Origin: Humulus lupulus
Lineage: Eukaryota > Streptophyta > Magnoliopsida > Rosales > Cannabaceae
Direction: 5' to 3'
Assembly: GCF_963169125.1 (NCBI RefSeq)
Contig: NC_084795.1
Span: 142,575,766 to 142,639,765 of the forward strand
Length of the DNA stretch: 64,000 bases
Shown one piece after another: positions 11,341-53,703 of the stretch (positions within the stretch are counted from its first letter, which is position 1; every line of letters begins with the position of its first letter). Both the position numbers and the translations under genes were made by a program. The notes under the pieces were generated by a model. It saw only the letters and a program-made list of their open reading frames with translations. It was not told the DNA's origin and ran no database searches.

Positions 11341-12276
11341 GCCCACAACCAGCTCTATCTTGCTCTGGTCATCTCCTCTGCCAATTCCTTCGATATCTGC
11401 TTCAAACTAAACAACCATTCTGGGCCCCTCCGGCTCAACGCATCTGCTACTACATTGGATTTTCCTGGGTGGTAAAGGATGTCACAGTCATAGTCCTTCA
11501 CCAATTCCAACCAACGTCTCTGTCTCATGTTCAAGTCCTTCTCGGTAAAGAAATACTTCAAACTCTTATGGCCAGTGTATATCCCGCAATTTTCCCCATA
11601 CAAATAATGTCGTCATACTTTTAGTGCAAACACCACCACAGTTAGTTCCAGATCATGGGTAGGGTACTGCTGTTCATAATCCTTCAACTGCCGTGATGCA
11701 TAGACAATAACCTTCTCATTCTTCATCAATACGCATCCCATTCCCAGTCTCAATGTGTCATAGTACACTACAAACTTCCCTCCCATCAAAGGGAGGCTCA
11801 ACACAGGAGCAATAATCAATCGTTGCTTCAACTCCTGGAAGCTATCCTCACATTTATCTGACCAGGTGAACTTCAGATTCTTTCGTGTCAAATCAGTCAA
11901 TGTTGTGGCAATCTTTGATAACCCTTCCACGAACCGTCTGTAATATCTCGCTAGTCCAAGGAAGCTCCTAACCTCCGAGGCATTCCTTGGCCTCGGCCAA
12001 TCCCTAACTGCCTCTACTGTGGCTGGATCTACCTTAATCCCATCTATACTAATAATATGTCCAAGGAATGTCACGTCTGGTAGCCAGAACTCACACTTCT
12101 TCAACTTAGCATACAACCGATGCTCTCTCAATCTCTGTAATACACGTCGGAGATGTTGCTCATGCTATGCCTCTGAACTGGAGTAAACTAAGATGTCGTC
12201 GATGAAGACAATCACAAACTGGTCCAAGAATTCCTTGAATACTCTGTTCATCAGATCCATAAATTTTGTTGGGGCG
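11341..12276 (-). pseudogene. int1 reverse transcriptase C-terminal part and RNase H
   Basis: Minus-strand RT is retained from just before the FIDDILVY catalytic motif (about 12181-12215) through [16 protein letters not shown] and [18 protein letters not shown]. RNase H follows with [30 protein letters not shown] and [11 protein letters not shown]. One 172-codon stretch (11613-12131) is open. Everything upstream in the element (early RT, protease, gag, PBS) is missing: at 12276 the RT sequence stops, and after removal of the Athila insert it joins LTR2 sequence at 20058. The catalytic Asp of RNase H in the first motif is kept (YYD). Confidence 0.85.
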
Positions 12277-13772
12277 TGTTGTGAATTTTCTAACAATTAA
12301 AATATGCGCAAGTATACACAGTCACAAACAAGTAATACAGTGATAAAGTATCAAAGTTCGTCTCCACAGGGACTTTTCAACTAAAATAAAGTAAAATCAA
12401 CCAAAGACAGTTTATAATACAGTAACCAAATCAAGAGAAAGGTTGTGTAATTAATTCTGGAATTAATTGTAAATAAGCAAATTTAATTAAGCTAAAAATC
12501 AGAGACCAAATGAAGTAATTCTGTGCAAATTTCAAATATGAGAAAATAGATCTGGGTGGTTAATTCCCCTCTGTTCGTTCCAGTTGCTACAGCAATGCCT
12601 CAGCAATGGGTCAGCAATTTATGTCACAGTTAACAGAATTCGTAAAACCCAGTGAGTTTTTCCCAAAACTTACTATCTATTGTTTATAACCTCCCTCAAT
12701 ACATTCCTGTATTAAAAACAGACAATAAACAATCCATCAAGCACCAAATCTTTAGGTTATGCAAGGCAGCAAAATAGTCCTATACCACTACTAAAAATCA
12801 CCTAAAACTAGGTAAGTTTCTTGCATCAATTGAATGGGTTCAGCTAGACTTCCCTTTTCCAAGTTAGATCTAACTTAATAAATGCTAAATATGGCCAGTA
12901 ATTAACATTCAATTAACATTACAGCACATTCAATTGAACTATGACATAAACAACTTCACCATGCATTCAAAATATTGATCCATACAAAGGGTTCATAACC
13001 ACCCAAATCCTCAAAAGCTTAGTTCATGTTTAATAATAGAAATACAAAACCAGTAGCCTTTAGCAAATCCATGGAGTTTGTTCACAAATTAGATAGAGAG
13101 AAAATACAATACAAAATGAAGAAGGGAGAAGAAGAAGTTAGAAGGAATTGTTGTGCTAAATCCCCCTAGTTGTCAGCTCGTGGTCCTCTTCCTCCTCTGT
13201 ACTCTCTCTGTTTTCTTTTCTTCTGTTTTCTCTCCAAAAATGGTCTCAGAAAATCAGCTGTTTCTCCTAATGGAGGCTGCTTCTTTTTCGGCTGGTCCTT
13301 TTCTCTTTTTAGGGTACTTGGTTTACCCTAATTAGCAAGTCAATTCGCACCTTGTCCTCCACGTGCCACATCACCTAGCTGACTTAATTGTACAATACTC
13401 TCGCCACCTCAGTGCCACTTATGCCTCATTAAGTCCAGCTCGCAGTTGTCACGTTTCCTTCCTGGCTCTGCCCGATGCTACGGTGATGCTACAGCATTGA
13501 GGCAGCATCAAGCCCCTTTCAAAATTCGTTGCTCCCTTTTTGATTCCAAAGTTCCCTTTCTCAAATTTTGCAAGTTTCCTTTCCTGATTAATACAACACA
13601 GAAATTTACATAAAAAACACTGAAAAATATGACAATGCAAACACAAGGTCCCTAGCTACACAGACACACTAAATTGAACACAATTACAAGAAATAAAAAC
13701 TCATTACTCTTTTGTTTGGTTCAAAAATTAAGTTTAAAGATGTGAAAATAACTCTAAATCCTAGAGTTATCA
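12277..13772 (-). repeat. 3' LTR of the Athila-derived element
   Basis: In plus coordinates it runs from TGTTGTGAATTTTC to CTAGAGTTATCA, 1496 bp. By direct line-by-line comparison it differs from the LTR at 18557-20052 at five single positions and has no indels. It carries GCTACAGCA words near 12587 and 13479. The plus-strand 60-codon and 65-codon frames inside it recur in the other LTR only because the LTRs are copies; I do not call them genes. Confidence 0.95.
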
Positions 13773-13785
13773 ACACTCCAAACTT
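13773..13785 (-). other. Polypurine tract of the Athila-derived element
   Basis: The minus strand reads AAGTTTGGAGTGT directly before the LTR start TGATAACTC, the usual Athila arrangement. An ACTCGAGGACGAG block just upstream (about 13797-13809) is also typical of this lineage. Confidence 0.85.
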
Positions 13786-15723
13786 AGCCTATTGCTCGTC
13801 CTCGAGTAATGATGACACAAAAATAAACACAATAAACAAAATAAAATACACAACTTAACAGATGAGAGATCCAAAAGATTCAAAATGGCCTAGTGAACAT
13901 GTTGCTCTCAGAAAAATGGAATTAAGTGGAATAGCGAAGTGTTTCTGCCTTAACCGTATATGCTGCCCTTCTCAAATTTAGCTCACTGGATATCACTAAT
14001 ATCTCCCCAAAGTCACCTAATCAATAGTGTATACAAGTGCATCCCACCTAACCTTGAATTTCTCTACAACTACCCTTTGATTTTTTCATTCATTATAGCT
14101 CCATAAGTTGAATTAGTGCACTCCTCTCCACTAATGTAGTCTAAACTTATCCCCTCAATCAATAGGACTTTACTAAGCTTGTAATGTAAGGCTTGGGCTA
14201 GGGTATGGTAAAGGATGTCTTTTACTAGCTTAAACCTAACCACCTCACTTGTCAAAAACCGAGCCTCTCCCTCATGATTTATCTCTCTTGAATTACTTCC
14301 CTAAACGTTTTCTACTCACAAAGACATGTTGTTGTAATATAATTCTCTTGCTATTTTTATTCTTATCTCTTTTTTTTTTTTTTTTCTTTTTCTTTGTTTT
14401 TCTTTTTTTTTTTTTTTTTGCTAAACATATTCAAAACAAGAAAGATAACACTATAATACAATTATATGATAGATAGCAAGAGAATATGCTTGATAGTATA
14501 TAATGGTACGCCTTGTGAGCTAATTCCCCACCCCAAACTTACAACCCAACATTGTCCCCAATGTGGCTAAAATGGTAATCATGAATTAGCTCGCCACAAG
14601 CTACACTCACCACACTCACCCCAAACTTAGCATGAAAATCAATTTCTGACAAGTGAGAGCAATTAAGTTGGGACATGTATAGAAAGTGTATTGTAGGGGT
14701 AATGGGTATGCATGATCGGGTTGAACACAAAAATAGGCTAATCGGCTCAAAAATTGGGTGACTAAGGGAAAATATTCGTATAAGGAAGGCTAGAAAGGCT
14801 CAAGCATCCAAAGATGGCCTAAATCATTTCTAAGGGATAAGTCTAGCTAGGATTTCGCCTCAAGGAAATGCACTAACCAATTCTAGATGCTAATATTACA
14901 TATGCAGCAGTCATTTGAAAAATTCAAAGTATGGTGGGAAAACAAAAGTATAAAACTATTGAGGAGAGACTAAAAGGAAACATCCATGATATCCCGCAAC
15001 TTAACAAGCAGAGGCAACATATAAAACCAGGCAGCAACATGCATGGAATGAATGGAAAGTATCATCATCGAGCAGAACACTAAGCCATAGGAATATATTT
15101 TAAATCTCTCAATGACACACTAAAACACACAAACAACAACAAGACAACACAGAAACATAAATCTAACAACAGAACCTAAACAGAACATAAAAACTAAAAC
15201 AACATAACACAGAACAGAAACTAAAAATAGTTAATAGGAAAGGGAACCCCCTTCACTCGGATTCCTCTTGCGATTGCTGCCCAGAGTGCTAAATGAATGC
15301 TGTAACAACTGGGCAAATCCCAACCAATCGACCAATCAAACTTTTGTAAAACCCCGATACGAAAACAACGTCAATTTCTTTTTGGACCCAGCCTAAATGT
15401 TTGCTGCCCAGTGTTGCTGACTGGTTGCTATAGCAACTGGGCAACAACTCTCCACCCCAAACTTAATTCCTCTACCCAGACTAGAACTCCACTGTAACCT
15501 TTCCATGACCTTCCTGCACAGAAAATAACACCTTCTCAGATTTAAACAGAACACTTTATTTACAGCTACTATATATATATATTTTTTTTTTCTATTTGTT
15601 TTTTTCTTTATTTTCTCTCTATTTTTTTTTATATTATGGGGTGCCTTTGATTTTGCCTCACTCTTTTCTGTTTCTGTTTCTTTTCTCTCTTTTCTTTTTA
15701 TGAGGCACCCCAAGTTACAATTT
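13786..15723 (-). other. Long 3' untranslated region, no gene seen
   Basis: About 1.9 kb without a convincing gene. It has long poly-T runs on the plus strand (14371-14420, 15585-15630). Three extra copies of the AAGTTTGGGG tract lie on the minus strand (14531-14540, 14619-14628, 15455-15464), and CCACATTGGGGACAAT is at 14551-14566. The last motif recurs downstream of the env-like ORF in the Athila at 38416, so this is the remnant of the Athila 3' region without its env-like ORF. A GCTATAGCAAC word cluster lies at 15285-15445. Confidence 0.6.
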
Positions 15724-18432
15724 TCAAGCATCCTTCAAGGAGATCGAGGTCTTTTCTCGGTTGACCTCGCCTCCCCAATAGTGTTTCAGCCTCTGGCCAT
15801 TCACTTTAAACTCTCTTCCTGAAATTTCATCACGCAAGTCCAATGCACCACACGAAAAGACTTTAATTATCAAGAAGGAATCAGAGAAACTTGATGCTGG
15901 CTGTCTGGAACTTGCTTTCATTTTAGAATTAGAGAAATACACCCGCTGCCCCACTTCAAACCTTTGGGAATGAGCTTTCCTACCACACTTCTTTTTCTTC
16001 TTTCTACGTGGCTCTTGCAAATGAGACGATGCCTTGTTTATACTTGCCCCTAGCTCATTGTTGCTCTCAAATTCTTTAAGAGATAGCCTCATCCTCACTT
16101 TCTTGCTATACCTTGTGGGTACCTCTTCCTCCATATTAGTGTTCTTGACAGTGATGGCCAAACAATCTCCTACTTCATCTGGAGAACGTATATGATTGAA
16201 TACCTTGAAAATTACTTGTTCTTCTTGAGCTCTCATTGTGAGCTCCCCTTTTTCCACGTCAATCAAGGTCCTCCCAGTAGCTAGAAATGGCCTACCCAAG
16301 ATAATTGGAACATCTCTATCCACTTCATAATCAAGAATGATGAAATCGGCCGGAAAAATGAACTTATCAACTTGCACTAGAACATCTTCAATTTTTCCTT
16401 CTGGGTGCGCCATAGAAAGATCCGCCAATTGCAAAGTAACTGTGGTTGGCCTAGCTTCCCCAATGCCTAGCTTTTTGAAAATTGACATAGGCATTAGATT
16501 AATACTAGCACCTAAGTCACATAGAGCTCTTCCCACATCTCTTCCACCAATTGAACAAGGGATTGTAAAACTACCAGGATCCTTCAATTTCGGAGGGATT
16601 TTACTCTTCAACATGGCGCTGCAACCTTCTGTAAGAGCAACAGTCTCAAATTCTCCCAATCTTCTTTTTTTCGTCAAAATATCTTTTAAAAACTTGACGT
16701 AGTTTGGCATTTGTTCCAATGCTTCCACTAAGGGAATATTGATGTGGAGCTTTTTTAACACATCCAGAAACTTCCTGAACTGCCCATCTTGCTGCTGTTT
16801 ACGAAATCGCTGAGGAAATGGTAGGGGCGGCTTTGGTACAGATTCCACTGGAACAGATTGCTGACCCGATGCTGTATCAACTGGGCCAGTTTCAGTAACT
16901 AGATTACTAGATTCTCCTTCAGTTTGGATTGAAGTGGGCTCCCCACTGCCTTTTATTTTCTCCTCAGAATTTTCCAGAATTTTTCCACTCCGTAGCGTGA
17001 TTGCCTTGCATTGTTCTTTGCCATCCCTCCTTGGATTCTCGGTGTCACTAGGCAAGGAACCTTGGGGCCTATTTTTCAGATCATTGGCTAATTGTCCCAG
17101 CTGCATTTCAAGATTACGAAGGGATGCTGCCTGACTTTGTATCACTGCATCATTCTTTGCCATATAGTCCCTCATTAGACTCTCCAAAGAATTGGATTGA
17201 GAGCCTTGAGGGTGTTGCGTTTGTGGACCCCTTGGCTGCTGAGAAAAACCTGGTGGATAAGATTGCTTCCCTTGTGCTGATACACTGCTGGAACTTGCTC
17301 CTTGACCCCCCCAAGATAGATTCGGATGTTGCCTCCAAGCTGGGTTGTACGAATTTGAGTATGGGCCACTGTTTCGGTAAAAATTCTGGTTTCCCACATA
17401 ACAAACTGCTGCTGGGTTGGAAGGGCAATTCTCAAACATGTGCCCATCTCCACAATATACACAGGAAATGTCTCCACTTTGAATAGCAGCAGCTGGCTGA
17501 ATGTTGTTCCCCAAACTCATGTTTTTCAGAATATTAGTCATGGAAGCCATTTGGGCTGTCAAAGCAGTTAATGCATCTACTTCAAGAACCCCTGCCACTT
17601 TTCTACTTTGCGGAGCTCTTGTGTTGGACCATTGATAATTGTTGCTTGCAATTCTCTCCAAAATTTCGAATGCTTCATTATAAGACTTGGACAAGATAGC
17701 ACCATTGGCCGAGGCATCTAACACCATTCTAGAAGCTGCATTGAGGCCATTATAGAAAGTCTCCATCTGTATACAGTGCGGGATGCCGTGGTGTGGACAC
17801 TTCCGCAAAAGCTCCTTAAATCTCTCCCATGCATCACTGGTTGATTCATCTTCAAGCTGCTGGAATGACATGATTTCGCTCCGAAATTTTGCATTTCTGG
17901 TGGGAGGGAAATATTTGCGCAGAAACTTTTCAGCAAGATCATTCCAATTTGTGACAGAATCAGGAGGCAAAGTGTTGAGCCATGATCTAGCTCGGTCTCT
18001 TAATGAGAATGGAAATAGCTTCAGCCTTAATGCTTCTTCACTCACTCCTTGAAGCTTAAAGGAATCGCTCACCTCCAAGAATGAACGAAGGTGGAGATGA
18101 GGATCCTCCGTTGGTATCCCGCTGAACTGCCCCACAGTTTGGAGCATTTGAAACATCACTGGCTTGAGCTCGAATTGAGCTGCTTGTATTTCTGGCCTCA
18201 CAATGCCTGGATTTAGCTCATTAAACATGGGGGCAGCGTATTCCCGTATTGCTCTGGCTCTGTCATCCGCCAAAACAATGGGATTAGTGACTTGCTGGCC
18301 ATCCCCCTCATCATCAACACGTTCAGCCATAGTGCCTCGGCTTTTAGCCTTTTGATCCTTTCTCCTTTTTCTGAAAGTTCGTTCGATCTCGGGGTCAATA
18401 GGAGCAAGTTCACTGTCCTCTTGCTGGTTCAT
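15724..18432 (-). CDS. Gag-protease fused to integrase C-terminal tail (intact 902 codons)
   Basis: I start it at the ATG at 18432; the frame also extends upstream to a TTG at 18459. Residues about 1-300 are Athila Gag, opening with DPEIERTFRKRRK. A CCHC-like knuckle CVYCGDGHMFENC (C-x2-C-x3-H-x4-C) is at about 322-334. A low-complexity linker follows, then the protease with CDLGASINLMPMSIFKKLG at about 633-651 (DLG in place of DSG, also usual in Athila) and IILGRPFLATGRTLIDVEKG. After a basic stretch (RRKKKKK) at about 805-815 the protein becomes FEVGQRVYFSNSKMKASSRQ ... FKVNGQRLKHYW, the tail that normally ends integrase. RT, RNase H and the integrase core are deleted without breaking the frame. 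Gag would form particles; the tail's role is unknown. Confidence 0.9.
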   Translation of the reverse strand: MNQQEDSELAPIDPEIERTFRKRRKDQKAKSRGTMAERVDDEGDGQQVTNPIVLADDRARAIREYAAPMFNELNPGIVRPEIQAAQFELKPVMFQMLQTVGQFSGIPTEDPHLHLRSFLEVSDSFKLQGVSEEALRLKLFPFSLRDRARSWLNTLPPDSVTNWNDLAEKFLRKYFPPTRNAKFRSEIMSFQQLEDESTSDAWERFKELLRKCPHHGIPHCIQMETFYNGLNAASRMVLDASANGAILSKSYNEAFEILERIASNNYQWSNTRAPQSRKVAGVLEVDALTALTAQMASMTNILKNMSLGNNIQPAAAIQSGDISCVYCGDGHMFENCPSNPAAVCYVGNQNFYRNSGPYSNSYNPAWRQHPNLSWGGQGASSSSVSAQGKQSYPPGFSQQPRGPQTQHPQGSQSNSLESLMRDYMAKNDAVIQSQAASLRNLEMQLGQLANDLKNRPQGSLPSDTENPRRDGKEQCKAITLRSGKILENSEEKIKGSGEPTSIQTEGESSNLVTETGPVDTASGQQSVPVESVPKPPLPFPQRFRKQQQDGQFRKFLDVLKKLHINIPLVEALEQMPNYVKFLKDILTKKRRLGEFETVALTEGCSAMLKSKIPPKLKDPGSFTIPCSIGGRDVGRALCDLGASINLMPMSIFKKLGIGEARPTTVTLQLADLSMAHPEGKIEDVLVQVDKFIFPADFIILDYEVDRDVPIILGRPFLATGRTLIDVEKGELTMRAQEEQVIFKVFNHIRSPDEVGDCLAITVKNTNMEEEVPTRYSKKVRMRLSLKEFESNNELGASINKASSHLQEPRRKKKKKCGRKAHSQRFEVGQRVYFSNSKMKASSRQPASSFSDSFLIIKVFSCGALDLRDEISGREFKVNGQRLKHYWGGEVNREKTSISLKDA

Positions 18433-18532: not shown

Positions 18533-18550
18533 TCCCCGGCAACGGCGCCA
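18533..18550 (-). other. Primer binding site matching tRNA-Asp
   Basis: The minus strand reads TGGCGCCGTTGCCGGGGA, complementary to the 3' end of plant tRNA-Asp(GUC) including CCA as I know it. It lies six bases inside the 5' LTR end at 18557. Athila elements generally use this primer. The match is perfect, consistent with recent reverse transcription. Confidence 0.9.
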
Positions 18551-18556
18551 AAAACT

Positions 18557-20052
18557 TGTTGTGAATTTTCTAACAATTAAAATATGCGCAAGTATACACA
18601 GTCACAAACAAGTAATACAGTGATAAAGTATCAAAGTTCGTCTCCACAGGGACTTTTCAACTAAAATAAAGTAAAATCAACCAAAGACAGTTTATAATAC
18701 AGTAACCAAATCAAGAGAAAGGTTGTGTAATTAATTCTGGAATTAATTGTAAATAAGCAAATTTAATTAAGCTAAAAATCAGAGACCAAATGAAGTAATT
18801 CTGTGCAAATTTCAAATATGAGAAAATAGATCTGGGTGGTTAATTCCCCTCTGTTCGTTCCAGTTGCTACAGCAATGCCTCAGCAATGGGTCAGCAATTT
18901 ATGTCACAGTTAACAGAATTCGTAAAACCCAGTGAGTTTTTCCCAAAACTTACTATCTATTGTTTATAACCTCCCTCAATACATTCCTGTATTAAAAACA
19001 GACAATAAACAATCCATCAAGCACCAAATCTTTAGGTTATGCAAGGCAGCAAAATAGTCCTATTCCACTACTAAAAATCACCTAAAACTAGGTAAGTTTC
19101 TTGCATCAATTGAATGGGTTCAGCTAGACTTCCCTTTTCCAAGTTAGATCTAACTTAATAAATGCTAAATATGGCCAGTAATTAACATTCAATTAACATT
19201 ACAGCACATTCAATTGAACTATGACATAAACAACTTCACCATGCATTCAAAATATTGATCCATACAAAGGGTTCATAACCACCCAAATCCTCAAAAGCTT
19301 AGTTCATGTTTAATAATAGAAATACAAAACCAGTATCCTTTAGCAAATCCATGGAGTTTGTTCACAAATTAGATAGAGAGAAAATACAATACAAAATGAA
19401 GAAGGGAGAAGAAGAAGTTAGAAGGAATTGTTGTGCTAAATCCCCCTAGTTGTCAGCTCGTGGTCCTCTTCCTCCTCTGTACTCTCTCTGTTTTCTTTTC
19501 TTCTGTGTTCTCTCCAAAAATGGTCTCAGAAAATCAGCTGTTTCTCCTAATGGAGGCTGCTTCTTTTTCGGCTGGTCCTTTTCTCTTTTTAGGGTACTTG
19601 GTTTACCCTAATTAGCAAGTCAATTCGCACCTTGTCCTCCACGTGCCACATCACCTAGCTGACTTAATTGTACAATACTCTCGCCACCTCAGTGCCACTT
19701 ATGCCTCATTAAGTCCAGCTCGCAGTTGTCACGTTTCCTTCCTGGCTCTGCCCGATGCTACGGTGATGCTACAGCATTGAGGCAGCATCAAGCCCCTTTC
19801 AGAATTAGTTGCTCCCTTTTTGATTCCAAAGTTCCCTTTCTCAAATTTTGCAAGTTTCCTTTCCTGATTAATACAACACAGAAATTTACATAAAAAACAC
19901 TGAAAAATATGACAATGCAAACACAAGGTCCCTAGCTACACAGACACACTAAATTGAACACAATTACAAGAAATAAAAACTCATTACTCTTTTGTTTGGT
20001 TCAAAAATTAAGTTTAAAGATGTGAAAATAACTCTAAATCCTAGAGTTATCA
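18557..20052 (-). repeat. 5' LTR of the Athila-derived element
   Basis: It is 1496 bp and identical to the 3' LTR except at five sites: one near 19064, one near 19336, one near 19507, and two at about 19802 and 19808. It must hold the promoter for the fused ORF, but I see no clear TATA box in a fixed position. Confidence 0.95.
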
Positions 20053-20057
20053 GGGCG

Positions 20058-29248: not shown

Positions 29249-30651
29249 TGTTGAATCTATTTTATGTCACAATTAGGTGGTGGTTTAGGTAGTCTTTTAT
29301 GTTGTTTTTATTTCATTTAGTGCGATTTTACGCTTTTGTTTGCTTTTTTTTCAGCTCTGGTGAATAAAAAGGAAGATTTGAATACTTGGAGGAAAATGGT
29401 TCAAAAAGAGAAGAAAAACCCAAGTTTCAGTGTTGTTTTCTATAAAGGACGGATCCCGGATTGATTTGAAGGCATTGGTGATTTTTCGAGTTTAAAATTG
29501 CAAAGATTGAGAATTCATTAAGGGCCATGACTTAGGGAATTTGGAGTCGCGGCCAGCCTCTTCACAGAAACCGTGTGTTGGAGTCATGGCACGAGTCGCG
29601 GCATGGATTTGGAGGGCCATGACTTAGAGCGAATGCCCAGGGAAATAAGGACATGGGTCGCAGCAAGTGGACATTTGTGCTGCATCCCTCCTCAACGAAA
29701 AATGCAGTTTTGGGACACAGGTCGCAGGGCTAGAATAGCTGGGTCGTGGCCCAAATCCTTCAAAAAGAAAAATTTAGGTTATAAACGTAATTTCGAAAAG
29801 AAACAACGAGACAAGTTTTTGGTGGCTAAAATTCTTAGAGAACACTTTTGGGAGGCTTCTTCACCTGTTTGTCATCCATCTATTACTTTATGTTTGTTCT
29901 TGAATTTCTTTGTGTTTAGAATGACAGTTATGAACTAATTTTCTATTTAGGGCTGTTAATAGAATCGCTTGAATCCATATTATGAACTAATGCAATTTAT
30001 CATTTCTTCTTCATCTTCTTTTCAATTCCATGCAATCTGTGCTTGTTGATTGATTAGTGACCAGCCATCTATAGTCATTACCTGTATGTTTTTTAATCAA
30101 AATCTGAGAAGTGCGATTTGAATCTGCTTTGGTTGTTTAGGACGCAATTATAATTTGGAACGAGAGTATCTAGATTAATTGTGTGACTCTATTTTGAGTT
30201 GTTTTGATTAATGTTTCCTTTGTGATAAAAATTACCATAGAAATATAGGAAATTTTCACTTAGGTTGAGTTTATAATTCATAACATGATTATAAGCTGCT
30301 TTTGTCAACTCGTTAATTGAAATAGGAAGAAAGAAGAAGAAATTGGTAACTTGTATTAGGGATTAATAGGGAGGATAGTTGATGATATTAAATTCCCTAA
30401 TTACTCTCTTATTATTTAAATTCAAGGTTTTTTCGATACTTATTGTTTTTATTGAGTTCTTAATTATTGTTTTTGCAATTTATATTTTCTTCTGCATTAT
30501 TACAAGAATCAAAGTTTAATTGACCAAATAGAAACAAAAAGATTAATTGATTGGTAATTGGTGATTCAGTCATTGAGGACGATACATGGTTTTACCAAGA
30601 TTATTACTAATTTGCGATACGTGCACTTGCGTAGCAATAAATTTTTCAACA
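29249..30651 (+). repeat. 5' LTR of the Athila element
   Basis: It runs from TGTTGAATCTATTTTATG to TTTTTCAACA, 1403 bp. A cluster of GGTCGCGGC and GGCCATGAC words lies at 29525-29755, in contrast to the AT-rich rest. The 121-codon frame 29573-29938 lies over this cluster and looks accidental. Confidence 0.9.
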
Positions 30652-30657
30652 AGTTTT

Positions 30658-30675
30658 TGGCGCCATTGCCGGGGA
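30658..30675 (+). other. Primer binding site, tRNA-Asp type with one mismatch
   Basis: It reads TGGCGCCATTGCCGGGGA; the only difference from the site at 18533-18550 is A for G at the eighth base. It lies six bases after the LTR end. Confidence 0.9.
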
Positions 30676-30789
30676 CTATAAACTATCAATATCAGTCTAA
30701 TTAATTTTATTTCTAATTTGGTTGTTCTTTGTCTTGTTTCTAACCTATTTCCGCTGCATTTCTTTGTCAAATTCAGGTAGTTTGGTTAT

Positions 30790-32450
30790 ATGTGTAGCAG
30801 AAGAGGAGCAGATAACCTTGCTCCAGTTAATCCTGAAATTGAGAAGGTTTGCAAACAAAATAGAATAAACAAGATGTTAGCTCGTTAGACTATGGAGATG
30901 GCACAAAATGACAAGAATAATGAGGTTCCCGAGGTTGTTCAAGGTCAGGCTCCACATCCTACTACAAGGAGGCTGAGAGACTATGTACTGCCCACTGTTA
31001 CAGGAGTACAAAACTTTATAAGACGGCCAGCTGTGGAGGCCAATAATTTTTAGGTTAAGCTGGAGATCTCGTAAATGGTGCAATCCACCGTCAAATTTTG
31101 TGGTTTGCCTTCTGAAGACCCCCATATGCAAAAGGAAAATTTCTTAGAGTTGTGTGATACCTTTAAGTATAATCGGGTGAGCGACGATGCAATCAGGTTG
31201 AGGCTATTCCCAATTTTGTTGTGGGAAAGAGATAAAAGTTGGTTGAACCCCCTTCAATCCAATTCGATAAATACTTGGGAGGATTTGGCTCAGAAATTCC
31301 TTGCCAAGTTATTTCCTCCATCAAAAGCTGCTAAATTGAGAGGGGAGATTAATAATTTTTATCAGCTGGATGGTGAATCTTTGTATGACTCCTGGGAAAG
31401 GTTCAAGGATATATTGAGAAAATGTCCCCATCATGGTATAGAAAAGTGGATGTTGGTCCACAATTTTTTACAACGGGTTGTGTGGTACAACAAGAACAAT
31501 TATTAATGATGCTGTTGGTGGGGCATTCATGAGTAAAAGTGCCAATGAAGCTTATGAACTGTTAGAGGACATGGCCACAAACAATCATCAGTGGTCTGAT
31601 GAGAGGTCATTTAGGGTTCGAAAGGTAGTTGGGGTACATGAACTTGAAGCTATTACTGCTCTGACAGCACAAGTGGCCTCGTTGACAAAATAATTGCAGC
31701 AGAATACTGTGTCCGCTAATGCGATTCAGATGGAAGCTAGGTGTGAAATTTGTGGAGGTTCTCACTCTTTTGATCAGTGTCCTATTGGTAATAAAAATAA
31801 CATTCCTATGGACCAAGCTCAGGTTCAAGCTGTGGGATATTTTCAGAGGCCATTCAACAATCCATTCTCCAACACCTACAATGCTGGCTGGAGAAATCAC
31901 CCCAACTTTTCTTGGAGAAACAATCAAGGCCAGCAATCTTGGTTTCAAGGTCAGTATTATAAGAATATGCCTCAACAACAAGCAATGCATTAAGCCTCTT
32001 CATCATAATAGCCTAGGCCACAAGCTCTACCAGACAGGCCTAATGAATTACAAGCTGTGTTATTGACTCTTACCAACACTCAAACTCAATTCATGACTGA
32101 GACCAGATCCTCTATCAGAAATCTTGAAACACAAGTGGGGCAGTGGGCAAATTTGCTGAATAATAGACCTCAGGGAAACTTACGTAGCAACATTGAAATT
32201 AATCCTAAGGAGCAATGTCAGGCAATTATTATGAGGAGTGGTCAACAAATTGAGCAGTCTAGTGTACAACAATTAGTGGTTCAGAATGAAGATTTTGGGT
32301 GAAAAGTCTGATACAGTTGAGCAAGGGGTTACTGAAGATCACAAGAGTACAGAGAAAATTCCTCCAGTTGTTGTTGACCAGCCAGCCTGAGTTCCATATC
32401 CTAAGAGGCTTAGAAAAATTACTCTTGATAAACAGTTTTCTAAGTTTTTA
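30790..32450 (+). pseudogene. Athila gag, broken
   Basis: The start ATG at 30790 is followed by CSRRGADNLAPVNPEIEKV, the same opening as the ORF at 18432. Blocks include [53 protein letters not shown] and the knuckle CEICGGSHSFDQC (C-x2-C-x3-H-x4-C) at about 31743-31781. Five frames (31075-31506, 31478-31693, 31694-31993, 32057-32302 and neighbours) are separated by stops or shifts. Confidence 0.85.
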
Positions 32451-32453
32451 GAG

Positions 32454-33240
32454 GTGTTCAAAAAGCTGCACATCAATATTCCTTTTGCTGTGGATTTGGA
32501 GCAGATGCCTAATTATGTAAAGTTCATGAAAGAGATTTTGTCTAAGAAAAGAAAGATGGAAGACTATGAAACTGTGGCACTCACTGAAGAATGTAGTTTA
32601 ATATTACATAGGAAGTTGCCCCAAAAGTTGAGAGATCTGGGGTGCTTTACTATACCTTGCACAATTGAAAAATTTGAGTGTATGCATGCCTTGTGTTATT
32701 TGCGGGTGAGTATTAATCTGATGCCCTTGTCTATGTTCGGAAGACTTGGTTTGAGTGAAGCAAGACCGACAACAGTTACTCTACAGTTGGCAGATCGATC
32801 GGTGAAGCATCCACGGGGTATCATTGAAGATGTTCTTGTGAAGGTGGATAAGTCTATTTTTCCTGCTAATTTTTTTGTTCTTGATATGGACGAGTATGCA
32901 AACATGCCTATCATTCTTGGAAGACCATTCCTAGCCACGGGCCAAGCTCTCATTGATGTTCCGAAGGGTGAATTAAAGCTTCGGGTTCAAGGGGGTGAGG
33001 TAGTATTCAATGTCTTCAAGGCAATTAAGTATCGGTGGCTAGTGACTATTGCTATAGTGTGGATGTGATAGATGATGCAGTCTCGAAACGAAGGGTGAGT
33101 AGTGATGCCTTAGAGGCGGTGTTGATAGGTGGTAAGGAAGATGATGATGATGATGTCGAGATGAGAGAATATGTAAATTGGATTAACTCTTGCCAACCGT
33201 ACAGGAAGAAGTTTGAAGAGTTGGTAGAGGGACCTGAATG
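32454..33240 (+). pseudogene. Athila protease, active-site Asp lost
   Basis: The 204-codon stretch 32454-33068 has LHINIPFAVDLEQMPNYVKF, then LCYLRVSINLMPLSMFGRLG where the family and the ORF at 15724 have C-D-L-G-A-S. Asp and Gly are both gone. MPIILGRPFLATGQALIDV is kept. A second frame, 33035-33241, continues with an acidic run. It matches residues about 550-740 of the Athila-derived fusion protein. Confidence 0.85.
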
Positions 33241-33289
33241 ACCATTAACATCTATTCAGCAGCCACCGCAATTGGAATAAAAGGCTCTT

Positions 33290-34720
33290 CCAGATCATTT
33301 GTGTTATGCATACTTGGGTGAGAATGAGACTTTACTTATAATTGTTTCAGCAGACCTCTCAAAAATTGAATTGGAGAAATTGTTGAGGGTTTTACGGGTT
33401 CATAAATTGGTCATTGGGTGGACATTGGCGGATATTAGAGGAATAATTCCTTCAACAGTCATGCATAAAATTTTATTGGAGGAAGATAGCAAGCCATCTA
33501 TAGAGGCTTAGAGAAGACTCAATCCAGCTATGAAGGAGGTTGTACTTGAGCAGATCCTTAAATGCTTAGACGTCGGGATGATCTACCCAATTTTTTATAG
33601 TGCTTCGGTGAGTCCAGTACAAGTGGATCCAAAGAAGGGTGGAATTATAGTAGTAAAAAATAAAAATAACGAGCTAATTTCAACTCGAACAGTGAATGGA
33701 TGGCGCATTTGTATTGACTATCGAAAGTTAAATAAGGCAACATGAAAAGATCACTTCCCACTTCCCTTTATCGATCAGATGTTGGACAGGTTAGCTGGTA
33801 ATGAGTATTATTGCTTTTTATATGGTTACTCAGGGTATCATCGAATTTCCATCGCACCAGAGGACCAAGAGAAAACATCATTTACATGTCCCTAAGGAAC
33901 ATTTGTTTTCAAGAGAATGCCATTCGGACTATGTAATGCACCAGCAACATTTCAACGGTGCATGATGGCTATCTTTTCGGATATAGTGGGAAGGAGCATT
34001 GAGATTTTCATGGATGATTTTTTTGTTTTTGGCTCTTCGTTTGATATGTGTTTGGGTAACTTGGAGAATGTATTGAACCGTTGTGAAAAGGAAAATCTGG
34101 TGTAAAATTGGGAAAAATGCCATTTTATGGTAAAAGAAGGCATAGTACTTGGGCACAAAGTATCTAGTAAAGGTATTGAAGTGGATCGAGCAAAAATCTC
34201 AACAATAGAAAATCTTCCACCGCTCGTGTCAGTCAAGGGAATTAGAAGTTTTCTAGGACATGTTGGGTTTTACCGAAGATTCATTAAGGACTTTTCAAAG
34301 ATTTCAAAGCCTCTTTCTACTTTTTTGATGAACGGTGTTACCTTTGATTTTCACGAAGAGTGCTTGCATGCTTCTAAAGTACTCAAGGAAAAGCTAACAT
34401 CTGCACCTATTGTGGTGGATCCAAACTAAGATTTACCGTTTGAATTGATGTGTGATGCTAGTGATTATGCGGTTGGTGCGGTTTTGGGGCAGCATATTGA
34501 CAAGGTATTTCGATCTATTTACTATGCTAGTAGAACTCTTAACAATGCTCAGTTGAATTATGCCACAATAGAAAAGGAGTTGCTAGCCATAGTGTTTGCT
34601 TTTGACAAATTTAGACCCTATCTAATTAGTAACAAGATGATTGTGAACACTGATCACTCTGCTATCAAGTATTTGATTACAAAGAAAGATGCAAAGCCTC
34701 GCTTAATCAGATGAGTTCTA
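33290..34720 (+). pseudogene. Athila reverse transcriptase and RNase H, degraded
   Basis: RT appears as WRICIDYRKLNKAT near 33700, FPLPFIDQMLDRLAGNEYY, MPFGLCNAPATFQRCMMAIF at 33917 and IEIFMDDFFVFG at about 34000-34030 (catalytic FMDD). Then follow IRSFLGHVGFYRRFIKDFSK, and RNase H with LMCDASDYAVGAVL, YATIEKELLAIVFAFDKF and VNTDHSAIKYL. Stops stand between the short frames (for example after KAT, after LV at 34105 and after DPN at 34429). Confidence 0.9.
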
Positions 34721-36152
34721 TTGCTACAAGAGTTTGATATGGAGATTCGTGACAAAAAGGATACTGAAAATATGGTATTTGATCACTTGTCAGGACTTGA
34801 AGTAGAAGAGAGTCAGAATAAGAAAGCGGTGCAGATTAATGATTTCTTTCCAGGTGGACAGTTATTTGGGGTGAGTGAAAATTATGTTGTGGCTTGGTTT
34901 GCTGATTTTGTGAATTTCTTTGTTGCAAAGATTGTGCCTCCTAAGATGACGAGGCAACAATTGAAGAAATTTTACTCTAAGGTGAAGCATTACTATTGGG
35001 AAGAGCCTATTCTCTATAGGCATTGTGCTGACAAATTCATTCCTTGTTGTGTACCTAAGGATGAGATGCACTCTATTCTTGCCCATTGTCATAATTTACA
35101 ATGTGGTGGGCATTTTGGAGCCACAAGAATAGCAGCTAAGGTATTGCAAAGTGGTTATTATTGGCAAACTCTATTTAAAGATGCTAATTCGTTTGTGAAG
35201 GCTTGTGATCAGTGTCAGCACACTTCTAATATCTCAAGGCGAAATGAGATGCCCCTAAATGTGATTTTGGAAGTTGAGCTTTTAGATGTTTGGGGCATTG
35301 ACTTCATGGGTCCATTTCCACTATCTTACAATAATGAGCATATCCTGTTAGTAGTTGATTATGTGTCAAAATGGGTGGAAGTTGCTGCTACGAAGACCAA
35401 TGACGGTAAAATTGTGTTGACCGTTCTACATAAACACATTTTCACTCATTTTGGTACACCCCGAGCTCTCATTAGCGATGAAGGGAGTCATTTTGTCAGC
35501 AAACCACTTAATGCACTTCTAGCTCGCTATGGTGTTTACCACTGCATTGCATTGCCATTTCATCCCCAATCAAATGGCCAAGCTGGAATTTAAAACATGG
35601 AAGTGAAAAGTATCCTTGAGAAGACTGTGGATAGTTCGAGGAAAAACTGGTCAAAGAAGTTGGATGATGCACTATGGGCTTACAGAACCGCATTTAAAAC
35701 ACCAATAGGTATGTCTCCATTCTCTTAGCTTTTGGAAAGGCTTGTCATCTTCTAGTTGAGTTAGAGCACAGGGCATATTGCGCAATGAAAAAGTTAAACT
35801 TTGATTGGAATGCTGCTAGTGAGAATAGAATTTTGCAACTGAATGAGCTTGATGAATTTCGTAATGAGGCATACGAAAACACAAAAATCTATAAGGAGCT
35901 CACCAATGCTTGGCTTGACAAAAACCTAGTCAAAAAAGAGTTTCAACCTAGGCAGCAGGTACTTCTTTTTAATTCACGGTTGAGATTATTTCTTGGAAAA
36001 TTGAAGTCTAGGTAGTCAGGCCATTTTACTGTAGTGAGAGTGTTTCCATATGGATCAGTGGAAGTGCAAGGAAAGAATGGAGATCCTTTTAAGGTGAACG
36101 GGCGTAGGTTGAGCCATATGTCGGCAGTGCATTTGATCAAGCAAAGTCAGTA
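34721..36152 (+). pseudogene. Athila integrase, catalytic Glu replaced
   Basis: The 290-codon stretch 34721-35593 has the zinc-binding HCHNLQCGGHFG ... CDQCQH and the core motifs DVWGIDFMGPFP and ALISDEGSHF. The third catalytic position in HPQSNGQA-E is Gly here (NGQAGI) and a stop follows. The C-terminal part (35785-36015 and on) ends [20 protein letters not shown] ... PFKVNGRRLSHM. This is the region found fused to protease at 15724-18432. Confidence 0.9.
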
Positions 36153-37145
36153 ATCCTCTTGAAGCCCTTTTGAAGAAGAGTTCATCGTCCGGCTAAATGT
36201 CGTTAATGACAGCACTCGTGGGAGGCATCCCATATATTTTTATTGCTTTCTTTACTTTTTGGTCTAGTTGGAACAAAATTTTAAGTTTAATTTTTGCACA
36301 TGTAAATTATGAATAGTTGGTGTATTATTGACATATGGAATCGTGAAGAAAAAAAATGAAAAAATATATTTTCTTAAGGGCCACGGCACAGCCATATGGG
36401 GCCGTGGCAAGACCCCTACCAGAGGCATAGTGATTTTATCATGGGGGTAGGTGGGTCGCGGCATAGACCATAGAGGGTTGCGTCTCTTATACCCAGAAAA
36501 GAAAAGAAAAAGGAGGCGGGCCGCGGCCCTTGAAGCTAAAATTTTCAGAAAAAATAGGCGGGTCGCAGCACTGGAGGAGGCTAGTTGCGACGCTGGGTCG
36601 CGACAGAGCATAAAAAACCAGAAAACCATAAATTCTCTTCCACTTTCTCCTCACATTTCTACTTTTCCTCCTTTCCATACTTCCGACTTCCCCATTCTCA
36701 CCCTCAAAAACCCATTTGTTTTCTCCTTAAAACACCATTCCCCAACCATTTATCATCTCCAATCTCCTTCACTTGACCTAAAACACAAATTTTCTCCTTC
36801 ATAAAACCTTATTTTCGAAAATTCCTATCAAATACCATGTATTTCTAAAAATATTGTGGGCAAAGGAAGGAGACGAGTTAACAAACAGGGGTTTCTCACT
36901 CATGTAAGTACAATTTATCCATTTTCTTTGAATTGTCAATGCTATGTTTGTAGTTTTTGGATAAATTGTACGTGAAATTGTTATGGAGTCATTTGGTCAG
37001 TTTGTGACGGACATCGAATTGTTAATGCACTTATCAAATATGTTCATGCTATTTTGATTTTGTGGGGAAGTGAGAAAACAAGGGGAGGTTCTGCTCAATT
37101 TCTCTCAGAAAATTTGGTGATAGTCATTGTTTTTTTACTTGTGCG
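36153..37145 (+). other. Spacer between pol and env-like ORF
   Basis: About 1 kb without a convincing gene. Positions 36378-36605 hold about eight GGGCCRCGGC or GGGTCGCGGC words, like the cluster in the LTR of this element. The rest is AT-rich and C/T-rich. Overlapping frames on both strands (36264-36804) are by-products of this composition. Confidence 0.55.
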
Positions 37146-38366
37146 ATGGGTCCTAAGAGAAATCCTCCAAGGGGTGCTTCTTCAAAGAATGCTTCCTCAT
37201 CCCTGATCGAACAACCACCGCCACCACCCACTGATTTTAACACAGAAAATTCAAAATTAAGGAGGCTGCGGATTTGTTTAAAAAAATCAATGGGAAATTT
37301 GTTGTTCCAGAAAGGGGAATGGAGTATCATTTGGAACCATACCCAAATGACTCCCCCTATGAGTCAATCAAAGCTGAAATTACTCGCCGAAATTGGGGTA
37401 TAGTTTGTAAGAAAATGCAAGTGGATAATGCCAATTACTCTCAACTGTATGAGTTTTATGCAAATTTCCCCAGTCAAGATGATGAGCAAAAAGTTTTTGT
37501 TCAAGGCAAGGAAGTGCCTTCCGACATTGATTCTTTTGATACTTTTCTCCATCTTCCTACTATTCCAGCCACTAAAGATGAACATTGGCAGTTGTCTCAA
37601 TTTAGCAAAGTTGGTTATGTTGAGGTGGCAGAAACATTGACCTTGTTGGGGGCTCGATTTCATTATCATGGTGGTGAGCCAAAGCATTTATTTCGCTGGC
37701 AGTTGAATCACATTGCCCATGCTTGGGCTTATTTCGTGAGTGCTCGTATGCTGCCCAGCACTCATGTATCTTCTATTGATCGAAGCGATGTCTTTTAGTT
37801 TACGCTATCATGACGGGAAAAATAGTGGATGTGGGACGAATAATTAGGTATAGCATTCGCAACATCAGTAAATTCAACACCACTGCTGGTTTGGTGCATG
37901 GCACATTCATAACTCAGTTGTGTGAGGCTTATGAGGTGCCAATGATTGACGGAGACATAATATGGATGCCCATGAAGCCTCCACAACCTGGCCAAGCCCC
38001 TAAACGTCGTGAGGTGGAGACGATGAGGAGATTGATCATGTTGTTACAGATGCAACTGATGAGGGGGGACCCAGTGGTAGTGCATCCTTTTTGGCTATTG
38101 TGGGGCCAATTGATTACCATACTCAGGGCATGCATAATCGATTGGATTACATCATTCAACAAAATCAGTATATGATCCAGTCACATCATGCTCAAAATCA
38201 ACATTTCAATCAATATATCGAGCAACGCAGTGAGTATGAAACTCAACATGTGGATGCTCTAAATGCTCTAGTCCAACAGTGGTCGATGAGTGAGGCAGAT
38301 CAAAATACCTTTATGTATCCACTGCCATACATGCCTTACAACCCACCGCCTCCGCCGCCACCATAA
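37146..38366 (+). pseudogene. Athila env-like / putative plant transposon protein, broken
   Basis: It opens MGPKRNPPRGASSKNASSSL at 37146. A frameshift near 37260 leads into the 174-codon stretch 37274-37798 with LYEFYANFPSQDDEQKVFVQ, DTFLHLPTIPATKDEHWQL and HIAHAWAYFVSARMLPSTHV. Another shift leads to GKIVDVGRIIRYSIRNI and a Gln/His-rich end closing with a run of prolines at 38366. The middle resembles the putative plant transposon protein domain common in the third ORF of Athila elements; no membrane segment is evident, so an envelope role is not supported by the sequence. Confidence 0.7.
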
Positions 38367-39641
38367 TGATGTGGCATGTCTCTTGAGGTAAGTTTTCTCT
38401 CCTTGGTTTTCAGGTCACATTGGGGACAGCGTGAAATTATAGTTTTGGGGAGAGGCTTATTGCTTTTGCTTCATTTTTGTTTTCCTTTTCATTTAATTTT
38501 TTTATTTAAGTTTTGTCTTTAGTGTCAAACAGTTAATCCAATGAAATTTCTTCAATAATGTCATTTGTCATCACTTGTGAAATAGAAATTGTGTGAATAG
38601 TCGTGTGCTTGGTTTGATCACTCTTTGGATTAAATTTAATGCTTCTTGGAAATTTTAATATGTGTAAATGTGAGTAATGAGCATATGTTATACATGTTTT
38701 ACTTGGGTATGAGGAATGAATTGTGGAATAGGATAGAACTTGCATTGCTTGTCTTTTGAGACGAAATCCTTGATGGCATGTGTGTTGGAAAATGATCTAA
38801 ATAATTTTGTTGGAACGTTTGAGCCTTTCAAGCTTACCGATATTATTTTATCCTTAGTTTTCCTCATTGTGTCTTAATTTGTTTAACCACATTATTAAGC
38901 CAAAAATGTACCCTTTATTATTTTCCCTTGTCCTTTGAATTATGCCATAAGCTTAGAAATAAGTTTGGGGGAAAGAATTTTATTCGGTGAGATTGTTGAT
39001 ATGTGGATAAATGATGTATTTTAATGATTGAGAGAAATGTAAAAGTTCTTGCAACATCACTAATTTATGTATACCATTCGGAAAACAAAAAGAAGATAAA
39101 AAAAAGTGATAAATAATTAAATAAAGTGATGTTGAAGCATTGTTTTGTGAGTTCTCAATTGTTGGAAGGTTGGTGAATTGGTGGATGGTTATTAAATGTA
39201 AGATGGTTGGTTTGATTGGTTTTTTATGTGCTTATGGTATAATGAAGCTTAAATGTCTTTTCAATCTAAGCCAAAATGTTGTGAACCTTAATAGTATTGT
39301 TGATTCCAAAACATGTGTTGTTGACATTAGTGGAGAAAGGAAAGTATGCAAGCATGTTGAATATTGGTTAGTGGATTTTTGGTATGAGTGAGACATGTAT
39401 GATGTGTTCTAATTGTTCATTTTGTAATTTTCAAATCATATTCTAATTTCCAATTATGGCATTCAGGTTAATTGTTGGAGTGATTGGATTGAAATTCTTG
39501 TTGTAAAATGCAGTCAATATTGTGAGTGATGACAATGCGATGTGAATAATATGGAGGCTTAACTGTATGTCGATGTGTTATGTTTTAAGTTTAGTGTCGA
39601 TCTTTACTCGAGGGTGAGTAAAGGTTAAGTTTGGGGGAATT
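38367..39641 (+). other. Athila 3' region and polypurine tract
   Basis: No gene is seen. CACATTGGGGACA at 38416-38428 is followed by AGTTTTGGGG at 38441. AAGTTTGGGG recurs at 38961-38970, and the final tract AAGTTTGGGGG lies at 39627-39637, four bases before the 3' LTR. An ACTCGAGGGTGAG block stands just before it. The 83-codon frame at 39140 has no domain. Confidence 0.75.
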
Positions 39642-40801
39642 TGTTGAGTCTAGTTTATGTCACGGTTAGGTGGTGTTTTAGGTAGTCTTTTATGTTGTTT
39701 TTATTTCATTTAGTGCGGTTTTATGCTTTTGTTTGTTTGTTTTTTCTGTTTTAGTGAATAAAAATGAAGATTTGAATACTTGGAGGAAATTGGTTCAAAA
39801 ATAGAAGAAAAACCCAAGTTTTGGTGTTGTTTTCTATAAAGGATGGATTCCGGCGTGATTTGAATGCATTGGTGATTTTTCAGGTTTAAAATTGCAAAAA
39901 TTGGAGAATTCATTAAGGGCCACGACTTGGGCAATTTGGAGCCACGACTAGCCTCTTCACATAAACCGTGTGTCGAAGTCAGGGCACAGGCCGCGGCATG
40001 GCTTTGGAGGGTCGTGGCTTAGAAGAGCAAATGCCCAGTGAAATAAGGACACCAGTCGCGGCAAGTTGACAGTTGCGTCGCGGCCCTCCTCAACGGAAAA
40101 TGCAGTTTTGGGACACAGGCCACGGCGCTAGGCAGCTGGGCCACGACCCAAATCCTTCAGAAAGAAAAATTTAGGTTATAAACCGAATTTTGAAAAGAAA
40201 CAATGAGACAGCTTTTTGGTGGCTAAAATTCTTAGAGAACACTTTTGGGAGGCTTCACTTGTTTGTCATCCATCAATTTCTTTATGTTTATTCTTGAATT
40301 TCTTTGTGTTTAGAATGACAGTTATGCACTAATTTTATGTTTAGGGTTGTTAATTGAATCGCTTGAATCCATATTAACTAAAGCAATTTATCATTTCTTC
40401 TTCATCTTCTTTTCTATTCCATGCAATCTGTGCTTGTTGACTGGCCATCTATAGTCATTACCTTTATGTTTTTGAATCAAAATCTGAGAAGTGCGTTTTG
40501 AATCTGCTTTGGTTGTTTAGGACGCAATTATAATTTGGAACGAGAGTATCTAGATTAATTGTGTGACTCTCTTTCGAGTTTTTTTTATTAGTGCTGCCTT
40601 TGTGATTAAATTTACCATAGAAATATAGGATATTTTCACTTAGGTTGAGTTTATAACATGATTATATGTTGTTTTTGTCAACTCGTTAATTGAAATAGGA
40701 AGAAAGAAGAAGAAATTGGTAACTTGTATTAGGGATTAATAGGGAGAAAAGTTTATGAGATTAAATGCCCTAATTACTCTCTTATTATTTAAATTCAAGG
40801 T
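39642..40801 (+). repeat. Athila 3' LTR, left part
   Basis: It begins TGTTGAGTCTAGTTTATG and matches the 5' LTR up to the AAGGT at 40797-40801, which is the target duplication of the Tat element. The remainder is 56743-56965. The CG-rich word cluster is at 39918-40150. Confidence 0.92.
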
Positions 40802-40904
40802 TGTTAACACCGCAAATTGAACAAGATCCTGAAAGACCCAGGCCTCACGCTTACCTCGCTGAAGGTTCTATGGACTCGAGCCTAAGTGCCCAGACCCGCG
40901 CCCC

Positions 40905-41930
40905 TGTCTCGCGAGGCCATCTTGCGAGGCCGTCTCTCAGGCTATGCCTAAACGTCGTGCCTAGGTACCAAGGCCCACGCCTCCATCTCGCAAGGCCATC
41001 TTGCAAGGCCGCCTCACAGGCCATGCCTAAGTGTCGCGCCTAAGTGCCCAGGCTCGCGCCTCCATCTCGCGAGGTCGTCTCGCAGGCCACCCCTATATGT
41101 CACGCCTAAGTTCCCAGGACCGCGCCCCCGTCTCGTAAGACCATCTCACGAGGCTGTCTCGAAGACCATGCCAATAAGTCGCGCCTAGGTGCCTAAGCTC
41201 ACGCCCCTGTCTCGCGAGGCCATCTCACAGGCTATGCCTAAGCGCCGCACCTAGGTGCCCAAGCCCGCGCCTCCATCTCACAAAGCCATCTTGCGAGGCC
41301 ATCTCGCAGGCCATGCCTAAATGTCGCGCCTAAGTGCTCAGGCCCACGCGCCCATCTCGTGAGGCCATTTCGCAAGGTCGTCTCGCAGGCCATGCCTATA
41401 AACCGCGCCTAGGTGCCCAGGCCCGCACCCCCGTCTCGCGAGGCCATCTCGTGAGGCCGTCTCACAAGCAATGCCTATGCGTCATGCCTAGGGGCCCAGG
41501 CCCAAGCCTCTGTCTCGCGAGGCCATCTCGCGAGGCTGTCTCGCAGCCTATGCCTAAGCATCGCACCTAGGAGTCCAGGCCCACGCCCCATCTCGCGAGG
41601 CTATCTCGTGAGACCGTCTCATAGGCCATGCATAAGTGCCGCGCCTAGGTGCCCAGGCCCACGCCTCCATCTCGCAAGGCCATCTCGCGAGGGCCTCTCA
41701 CAGGCCATGCCTAAGTGTCGCACCTAGGTGCCCAGACCCACGCCTCCATCTCGCGAGGTCATCTCGCAGGCCATACCTAATTGTCGCGCCTATGTGCCCA
41801 GGCTCGCGCCTCCATCTCACAAGGTCCTCTCGCAGGCCATGCCTAAGTGTCGTTCCTAAGTGCCTAGGCCCGCGCACCCATCTTCCAAGGCCATCTCGCG
41901 AGGTCGTCTTGCAGGCCACGCCTCTATGAT
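40905..41930. repeat. Minisatellite with CTCGCGAG palindromes in the Tat 5' LTR
   Basis: About 13 units of 65 to 95 bases. Each combines CTCGCGAGGCC or variants with a CATGCCTAAGTGTCGCGCC segment and a CCAGGCCCGCGCC segment. Many units include two or three head-to-tail CTCGCGAGG words. Plus-strand frames of 78 to 97 codons over it (Arg/Pro/Ser-rich) repeat because the DNA repeats; I do not call them genes. Confidence 0.9.
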
Positions 41931-52604: not shown

Positions 52605-53703
52605 TGTGAACACTTCAAATTGGACATGATCCTGAAAGACCCAGGCCTCATGCTTACCTCCCTGAAGGTCCTATGGACCCACGCCTAAGTGCCCAGGCCA
52701 GCGCCCCCATCTCGCGAGGCCATCTCGCAAGGTTGTCTAGCAGGCTATGCCTAAGCACTGCTCCTAGGTTCCCAAGCCCATGCCTCCATCTCGCGAGGCC
52801 ATCTTGCAAGGTTGTCTCACAGGCCATGCTTAAGTGTCGTGCCTAGGTACCCAGGCTCACGCCTCCATCTCGCAAGGTCATCTCGCAAGCAATGCCTAAT
52901 TGTCGTGCCTAAGTGCCTAGGCCCGCGCCCCTGTCTCGCGAGGCCATCTCGCGAGGCCATCTCGCGAGGCCGTCTCGTAGGCCATGCCTATAAGCCACGC
53001 CTAGGTGCCCCGGGCCGCGCCCCTATCTCGCGAGGCCATCTCGCAAGGCCGTCTCGCAAGGCCGTCTCGCAGGCTATGCCTAAGCGCGGTGCTAGTTGTC
53101 CAGGATCGCGCCTCTATCTCGCGAGGCCGTCTCACAGGCCATGCCTAAATGTCGCGCCTAAGTGCCCAGGCCCGCGCCCCCATCTCACGAGGCCGTCTCG
53201 CAGGCTATGCCTAAGAGTCGCGCGTAGGTGCCAAGGCCAACACCTCTGTCTCACGAGGCCATCTCGCAAGCCCGTCTCATAGGCTATGCCTAAGAGCCAC
53301 GCCTAGGTGCCCAGGCCCACGCCTCCATCTCGCGAGGCCATCTCACGAGGCCGTCTCATAGGCCATGCCTAAGTGTCGCACCTAGGTGCCCAAGCCCACA
53401 CGTCCATCTCACGAGGCCATCTCGCGAGGTCGTCTCACAGGCCATGCCTAAGTGCTGCACCTAGGTGCCCAAGCCCACGCCTCCATCTCGTGAGTCCATC
53501 TCACGAGGTCGTCTTGCAAGCCATGCCTAAGTGCTGTGCCTTGGTGCCCAGGCCCGCGCCTCCATCTCGCGAGGCCATCTCACATGTTCGTCTCGCATGC
53601 CATGACTAAGTGTCGCGCCTAAGTGCCCAGGCCCACGCCCCCATCTCGCAAGGCCATCTTGTGAGGTTGTCTTGCAAGCCATGCCTCTATGATATGAGTA
53701 TAT
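52605..53703 (+). repeat. 3' LTR of the Tat element, left part with minisatellite
   Basis: It starts TGTGAACACTTC. The minisatellite (about 52700-53690) has the same unit types as the left LTR but a different number and order of units. It is cut at 53703 by solo LTR D; the TATAT at 53699-53703 is the target site. The remainder is 56005-56737. Confidence 0.9.

Follow-up and report, generated by a model that had tools for sequence, protein, structure and literature searches.

A Cannabaceae family of short Athila-clade retrotransposons, probably helper-dependent, that joins Gag and protease to a remodelled integrase tail

The window analysed here, a stretch of 64,000 nucleotides of the hop (Humulus lupulus) genome, carries on its minus strand a complete LTR retrotransposon with intact LTRs, TSD and PBS. 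Its 5′ LTR (TGATAAC...CACAACA; 18557..20052, minus) and 3′ LTR (12277..13772, minus), delimited by LTR self-comparison, are each 1496 bp long with 5 mismatches between them (99.67% identity), and the flanks read as the TSD CGCCC at 20053..20057 on the 5′ side and 12272..12276 on the 3′ side. Rejoining the flanks restores an uninterrupted RT reading (14 residues) of the older gypsy element that was hit, so the window element is an ordinary integrase-type insertion. The PBS (TGGCGCCGTTGCCGGGGA; 18533..18550, minus) begins 6 nt past the LTR, and its 18 bases, identical in all seven oriented hop loci examined, are of the tRNA-Asp type found in the Athila clade. LTR divergence dates the insertion to 0.27 My at 6.1e-9 substitutions per site and year, with 0.13 My as the alternative at 1.3e-8, a substitution rate for plants. 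The former rate is the one applied to hop in PMC12371157. Downstream of the coding region, the 3′ non-coding region (13773..15723, minus) is in parts 90-99% identical to the autonomous-type hop copies L025 and L029. Some Athila members have an env-like or other 3′ ORF; here, by frame length, none longer than 113 aa lies on the element's strand between the ORF and the 3′ LTR, and an envelope-less Athila member, Diaspora, has been published. Another Athila relative in the window (29249-40802, +) is full-length but old and decayed: its LTRs are 88.5% identical, and its gag-pol, spanning 30817 to 36117, is interrupted in pol by ten or more stops. Over 44 bp, at 88.6%, its LTR 3′ end/PBS region is shared with that of the young element. 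Two mutually similar arrays of ~66/79-base repeats, ~11 kb apart, occupy 40851-41922 and 52654-53680.

The coding capacity of the element is a single ORF of 902 codons from the ATG at 18432 (15724..18432, minus), which is open to 18459 and then amounts to 911 aa; the corresponding 916-aa stop-to-stop frame is the longest in the window, the runner-up having 405 aa. From its N-terminus it encodes a Retrotrans_gag domain (17740..18021, minus; Pfam, residues 147-240, E 4.5e-24), a zinc knuckle C-x2-C-x3-H-x4-C read from the sequence (17425..17463, minus), an aspartic protease domain with DLGAS inside (16285..16563, minus; Pfam Asp_protease_2, residues 633-725, E 1e-05), a family-specific linker (15979..16224, minus; residues ~746-827) and a putatively SH3-like integrase C-terminal tail (15727..15978, minus), assigned by homology and predicted fold, that has lost the GKLKSRWSGPF motif. 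Homology of the tail spans residues ~828-911, with 54% identity to the complete Cannabis polyprotein P0132 over 78 aligned residues (tblastn E 2.9e-19). An earlier note, made from the letters of this DNA, had placed Gag, a CCHC knuckle, protease and an integrase tail in this one frame, and Pfam, the knuckle reading and tblastn all agree. It was also right that RT, RNase H and the integrase core are missing from the ORF, in which Pfam found gag and aspartic-protease families only, but not that protease is joined cleanly and straight to the tail. Some 80 residues intervene, of low confidence and probably disordered in the predicted model, beginning directly after GELTMR and finishing near an RRKKKKK run (15988-16008). 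When the joint was mapped against full Athila-type copies, as the note had proposed, five autonomous-type hop loci aligned down to window 16232-16161 and resumed only from 15822 to the stop, and no DNA similarity to the linker was detectable in the five. Either something other than a clean in-frame deletion brought protease and tail together, or the joint would have to have diverged beyond recognition since. One hop protein, P0058, couples the family linker to a canonical tail.

The note had accepted that, were this the only copy with the joint, it would be a one-off deletion. A 504-base linker-plus-tail query produced 512 candidates in the hop genome, and all 40 that were scored, spread over ten contigs, matched: 12 at 99-100% identity, 22 at 93-95% and six others at 88-94%. 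The whole linker and tail were open in 27 of the 40 and broken in one or the other in 13. Among the best 40 of 1598 LTR matches, seven loci had LTRs spaced 6.28-6.39 kb apart with the linker and tail inside, bearing out the expectation of further copies with the same joint and similar LTRs, and four had a spacing of 10.8-11.0 kb, the one that was read (L029) containing pol. The same LTRs bound short elements of ~6.3 kb and long ones of 10.8-11.0 kb. Three of the seven short-spacing loci (C1:300004998, C4:242098334 and C7:21052641) are three-LTR tandems with ~6.3 kb spacing, an arrangement already known for plant LTR elements (PMC11899658, as far as the available text goes). A second full short copy, L024, has its own TSD (TGAGT) and an LTR pair 99.87% identical; its LTR is only 84% identical to that of the window, yet linker and tail are 99-100% identical between two short copies of which it is one. 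The linker was matched by 19 of 240 collected proteins, every one from Humulus or Cannabis, and the same linker and tail occur in gene models of Cannabis, the genus being known here from such models; in some of them (P0002-P0007, P0013) a predicted intron shortens the linker. In one hop subfamily (L062-L065, L067) the tail ends in KFGGGEVK, with a codon deletion common to Cannabis (KFG.GEV), whereas younger hop copies have a helper-like tail end.

In Ulmus and Citrus, a number of gene models that end in such tails seem to be spliced over a missing pol, which might have suggested that the window ORF is likewise an annotation artefact, or else a one-off deletion. We took those models to be probable splice artefacts and left them aside; the window joint, in contrast, lies in contiguous genomic DNA, 39 further scored copies match it, and L024 has a different LTR and its own TSD. 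The further linker-plus-tail copies and the 6.3-kb LTR spacing refute a one-off deletion for hop, and we regard deletion or artefact as hardly credible. Since the joint recurs in hop copies, short-spacing loci and Cannabis models, it marks a mobilised non-autonomous family. Searches of viral contigs with the ORF and P0132 found no plant relatives. Two bacterial genome contigs, attributed to Geminicoccus harenae (L001) and Solirubrobacter sp. (L002) hold a full Athila-type gag-pol, 58% identical to Cannabis P0132, probably as plant DNA contamination of those assemblies.

The Gag-protease portion was nearest to Athila-type elements, and its pol-bearing relatives have a gag-pol that we take to be of the Athila kind. 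A gag search of hop gave 868 candidates, 40 of them scored and one of these the window itself; the 20 stretches at ranks 2-21, a sample and no census, comprised 17 with pol, two short copies and one of other structure. In 13 of the 17 the pol match was one segment, stop-free in seven. A likely partner emerged in pol-bearing L029, which has LTR, LTR ends and PBS in common with the window element: identity to it is 97.4% in the window element's LTR and 100% in the leader, but only 90% in gag 1-350. That gag segment is instead 99.7% identical to pol-bearing L017, an element whose LTR can be aligned for about half of its extent, at 69%. The switch falls close to the beginning of gag, where both lineages are 98-100% similar to the window, and beyond it L017 alone is. 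On these comparisons the window copy is a mosaic, its LTR and leader apparently from one autonomous lineage and its gag from another, with the protease-linker-tail block the family's own. Triplet tests (seven triplets, 200 permutations each) set breaks in the window copy, P0001 and P0058; in six no permutation was as good as the observed pattern, and in the seventh (window, P0016, P0010) 5 of 200 were. The break in the window copy shifted with the partner, to 669/670 with P0009, 505-517 with P0012 and 397/398 with P0016, P0009 and P0012 being autonomous-type on our reading of their post-protease sequence. In Cannabis, P0001 was 99-100% identical to P0132 in its N-terminal and gag segments, but identity fell to 24% for the linker and 55% for the tail. 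Such a pattern would be expected if short and full RNAs were packaged together and template switching between them recurred, and gene conversion after insertion could be the source of part of it. There is precedent in the CR elements of grasses, where related LTR retrotransposons recombine and recombinants can be prolific (PMC4079200, available part).

In the tail tree (28 rows chosen, P0215 and P0184 dropped, leaving 26), the hop and Cannabis short forms made one clade (99/98) against 19 other tails, and the form is thus probably older than the separation of the two genera, some 20-28 My ago. In the gag tree (4 of 30 rows dropped for short coverage, and 3 of 30 in that of protease), the short forms required 5 changes, 4 of them forced by starred branches, no fewer than expected from a shuffled-label mean of 5.5. 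There the Cannabis short forms grouped with autonomous P0132 (98) and the window with hop models P0009 and P0014 and Cannabis model P0039 (97), while hop P0031 paired with Cannabis P0144 (91), so that the species were not cleanly sorted. If these groupings are a guide, the short form probably existed before hop and Cannabis diverged, and its gag has been renewed since. Separate deletions in hop and in Cannabis would also give short forms in both, but the tail clade, the common linker and the Cannabis-like shortened KFG.GEV end of hop L062-L065 and L067 make them less likely. The description of the element as a young derivative consequently needs dividing: the window insertion is young, as its LTRs indicate, and the architecture, common to Cannabis, is old.

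Whether the tail is maintained bears on how the family lives. For 37 of the 40 copies (L048, L052 and L066, with net frameshifts, omitted; stop codons skipped), codons were aligned under the guidance of the protein sequence; three subfamily comparisons then gave whole-tail dN/dS of 0.21 (0.11-0.38), 0.44 (0.24-0.92) and 0.50 (0.29-0.96), and linker values of 0.80, 0.73 and 0.71 with limits well above 1. An integrase C-terminal domain would be expected to fold as an SH3-like barrel of five strands; in an AlphaFold model of the tail a barrel persists, with weak-score likeness to SH3-like domains including that of Rous sarcoma virus integrase; the tail alone matched no Pfam family, and among PDB sequences gave one chance-level match (E 0.79). 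These results suggest a tail under weak to moderate constraint. Against this, it may be a passive remnant that supplies a native stop and drifts almost freely, the family living on Gag-protease or cis signals alone, a reading to which we give somewhat less than an even chance. It would account for tail branches several-fold longer in the short forms than in autonomous P0132 and P0144, the disappearance of the GPF motif, a hop-Cannabis tail identity of only 49%, and codon-bootstrap upper limits for the tail core that reach 0.98-1.14, with the linker not clearly different. It is also in keeping with the 13 broken copies, with the one tail stop common to the C1 tandem units L035 and L036, whose inserted cDNA may already have had it, and with a tail stop in the very young L024. 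Free drift is harder to reconcile with whole-tail dN/dS limits below 1, with a linker and tail open in both hop and Cannabis (probability 0.0012 under a neutral codon model, kappa 2 assumed), with 36 of 88 hop-Cannabis differences being conservative, above expectation (P 0.0056), and with the predicted barrel being retained.

It is considerably more doubtful, indeed improbable, that what is preserved at the end of the ORF is a nucleic-acid signal acting in cis, for packaging, dimerisation or 3′ processing, and not a protein. The last 100 bp are the sole post-linker coding DNA that aligns by blastn to autonomous-type hop copies (74-89%), from which they may have been re-acquired, and the last ~22 codons of younger copies look acquired from autonomous elements. 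Between the two main subfamilies, however, the differences in this segment are mostly synonymous (dN/dS 0.11), a sign of constraint on the protein, in part carried over from the donor helper; against the third subfamily the values are 0.42-0.43, with limits above 1.

Several published systems resemble the family in part. Closest in host are the noaCRM elements of hop, which likewise are without RT, RH and INT, have PBS and 5′ LTR in common with autonomous partners and include recent insertions, but belong to the centromeric chromovirus (CRM) lineage; in the available text a legend implies that GAG, PRO and a chromodomain are kept, and the discussion ascribes an integrase with a targeting C-terminus to autonomous copies only (PMC12371157). 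The non-autonomous subfamily of wheat Fatima encodes a gag and aspartic protease polyprotein and has an LTR that agrees at 91% with that of the autonomous form; it differs in its monocot host and in having internal regions that mostly do not resemble their autonomous counterparts, and the accessible part of the paper mentions no integrase tail (PMC3129301). RLG_Sabrina and RLG_WHAM of barley are non-autonomous, of the Athila clade, with gag intact in WHAM and Sabrina_A and a common PBS/LTR 3′ end; the sections available mention no protease-integrase-tail fusion and state that a close autonomous partner was not found there (PMC5738225). Einkorn RLG_Quinta, cross-mobilised with RLG_Cereba and dated to 28-35 My, couples GAG to an extra domain, but it is of the CRM lineage and that domain, DUF1, is of unknown function (PMC11302176, in part). 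TR-GAG elements are also non-autonomous, LTR-flanked and Gag-coding, and a copia TR-GAG transposed in ddm1; they encode Gag alone in the text at hand (PMC8704663, PMC9784723), whereas the window ORF adds protease and an integrase tail. Open-licence papers yielded no description of an Athila element that combines protease with an integrase tail, and on that point the earlier note stands uncontradicted, even if Fatima, Sabrina/WHAM and noaCRM are close analogues. What seems to be new is the combination of Athila protease and a remodelled integrase CTD, in two genera, within a two-helper mosaic that has a private block.

Taken from the sequence comparisons, the elements very probably form a Cannabaceae family of helper-dependent LTR retrotransposons in the Athila clade, which would be mobilised in helper particles and recombine there. 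The family would make its own Gag and protease, joined via the basic linker to the remodelled integrase C-terminal domain, and RT, RNase H and integrase would be supplied by autonomous Athila elements with common Gag, leader, PBS and LTRs. Its RNA would probably be packaged together with helper RNA in mixed particles, where we infer that trans-mobilisation takes place, and template switching would keep swapping LTR, leader and gag for helper sequence. The lineage would be recognisable by its protease-linker-tail block and its lack of pol, and would probably have persisted since before the hop-Cannabis split. The note had suggested that the tail may tether particles or cDNA to chromatin, or be needed to recruit a helper's integrase. 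A role for the tail in trans can be imagined, by analogy with retroviruses: HIV-1 intasomes take up surplus CTD and are stimulated by it in vitro (PMC11281638, available part). Through the shared Gag, mixed particles would form, the family's own protease would free the CTD, and the CTD would join or recruit helper integrase. We think this unlikely; if true, the parasite would contribute a capsid, a protease and one domain of an integrase subunit, and borrow catalysis.

The family that this locus represents is most likely old, recently active and exchanging parts with the complete elements that it most likely needs. Judged from the DNA of one genome, a non-autonomous Athila family has probably outlived the split of two genera, its LTRs and gag renewed from helpers and its private block kept. 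Autonomous donors of identifiable segments offer material for testing co-packaging and template switching, and the family also lets one ask if an integrase CTD can act apart from its catalytic core.
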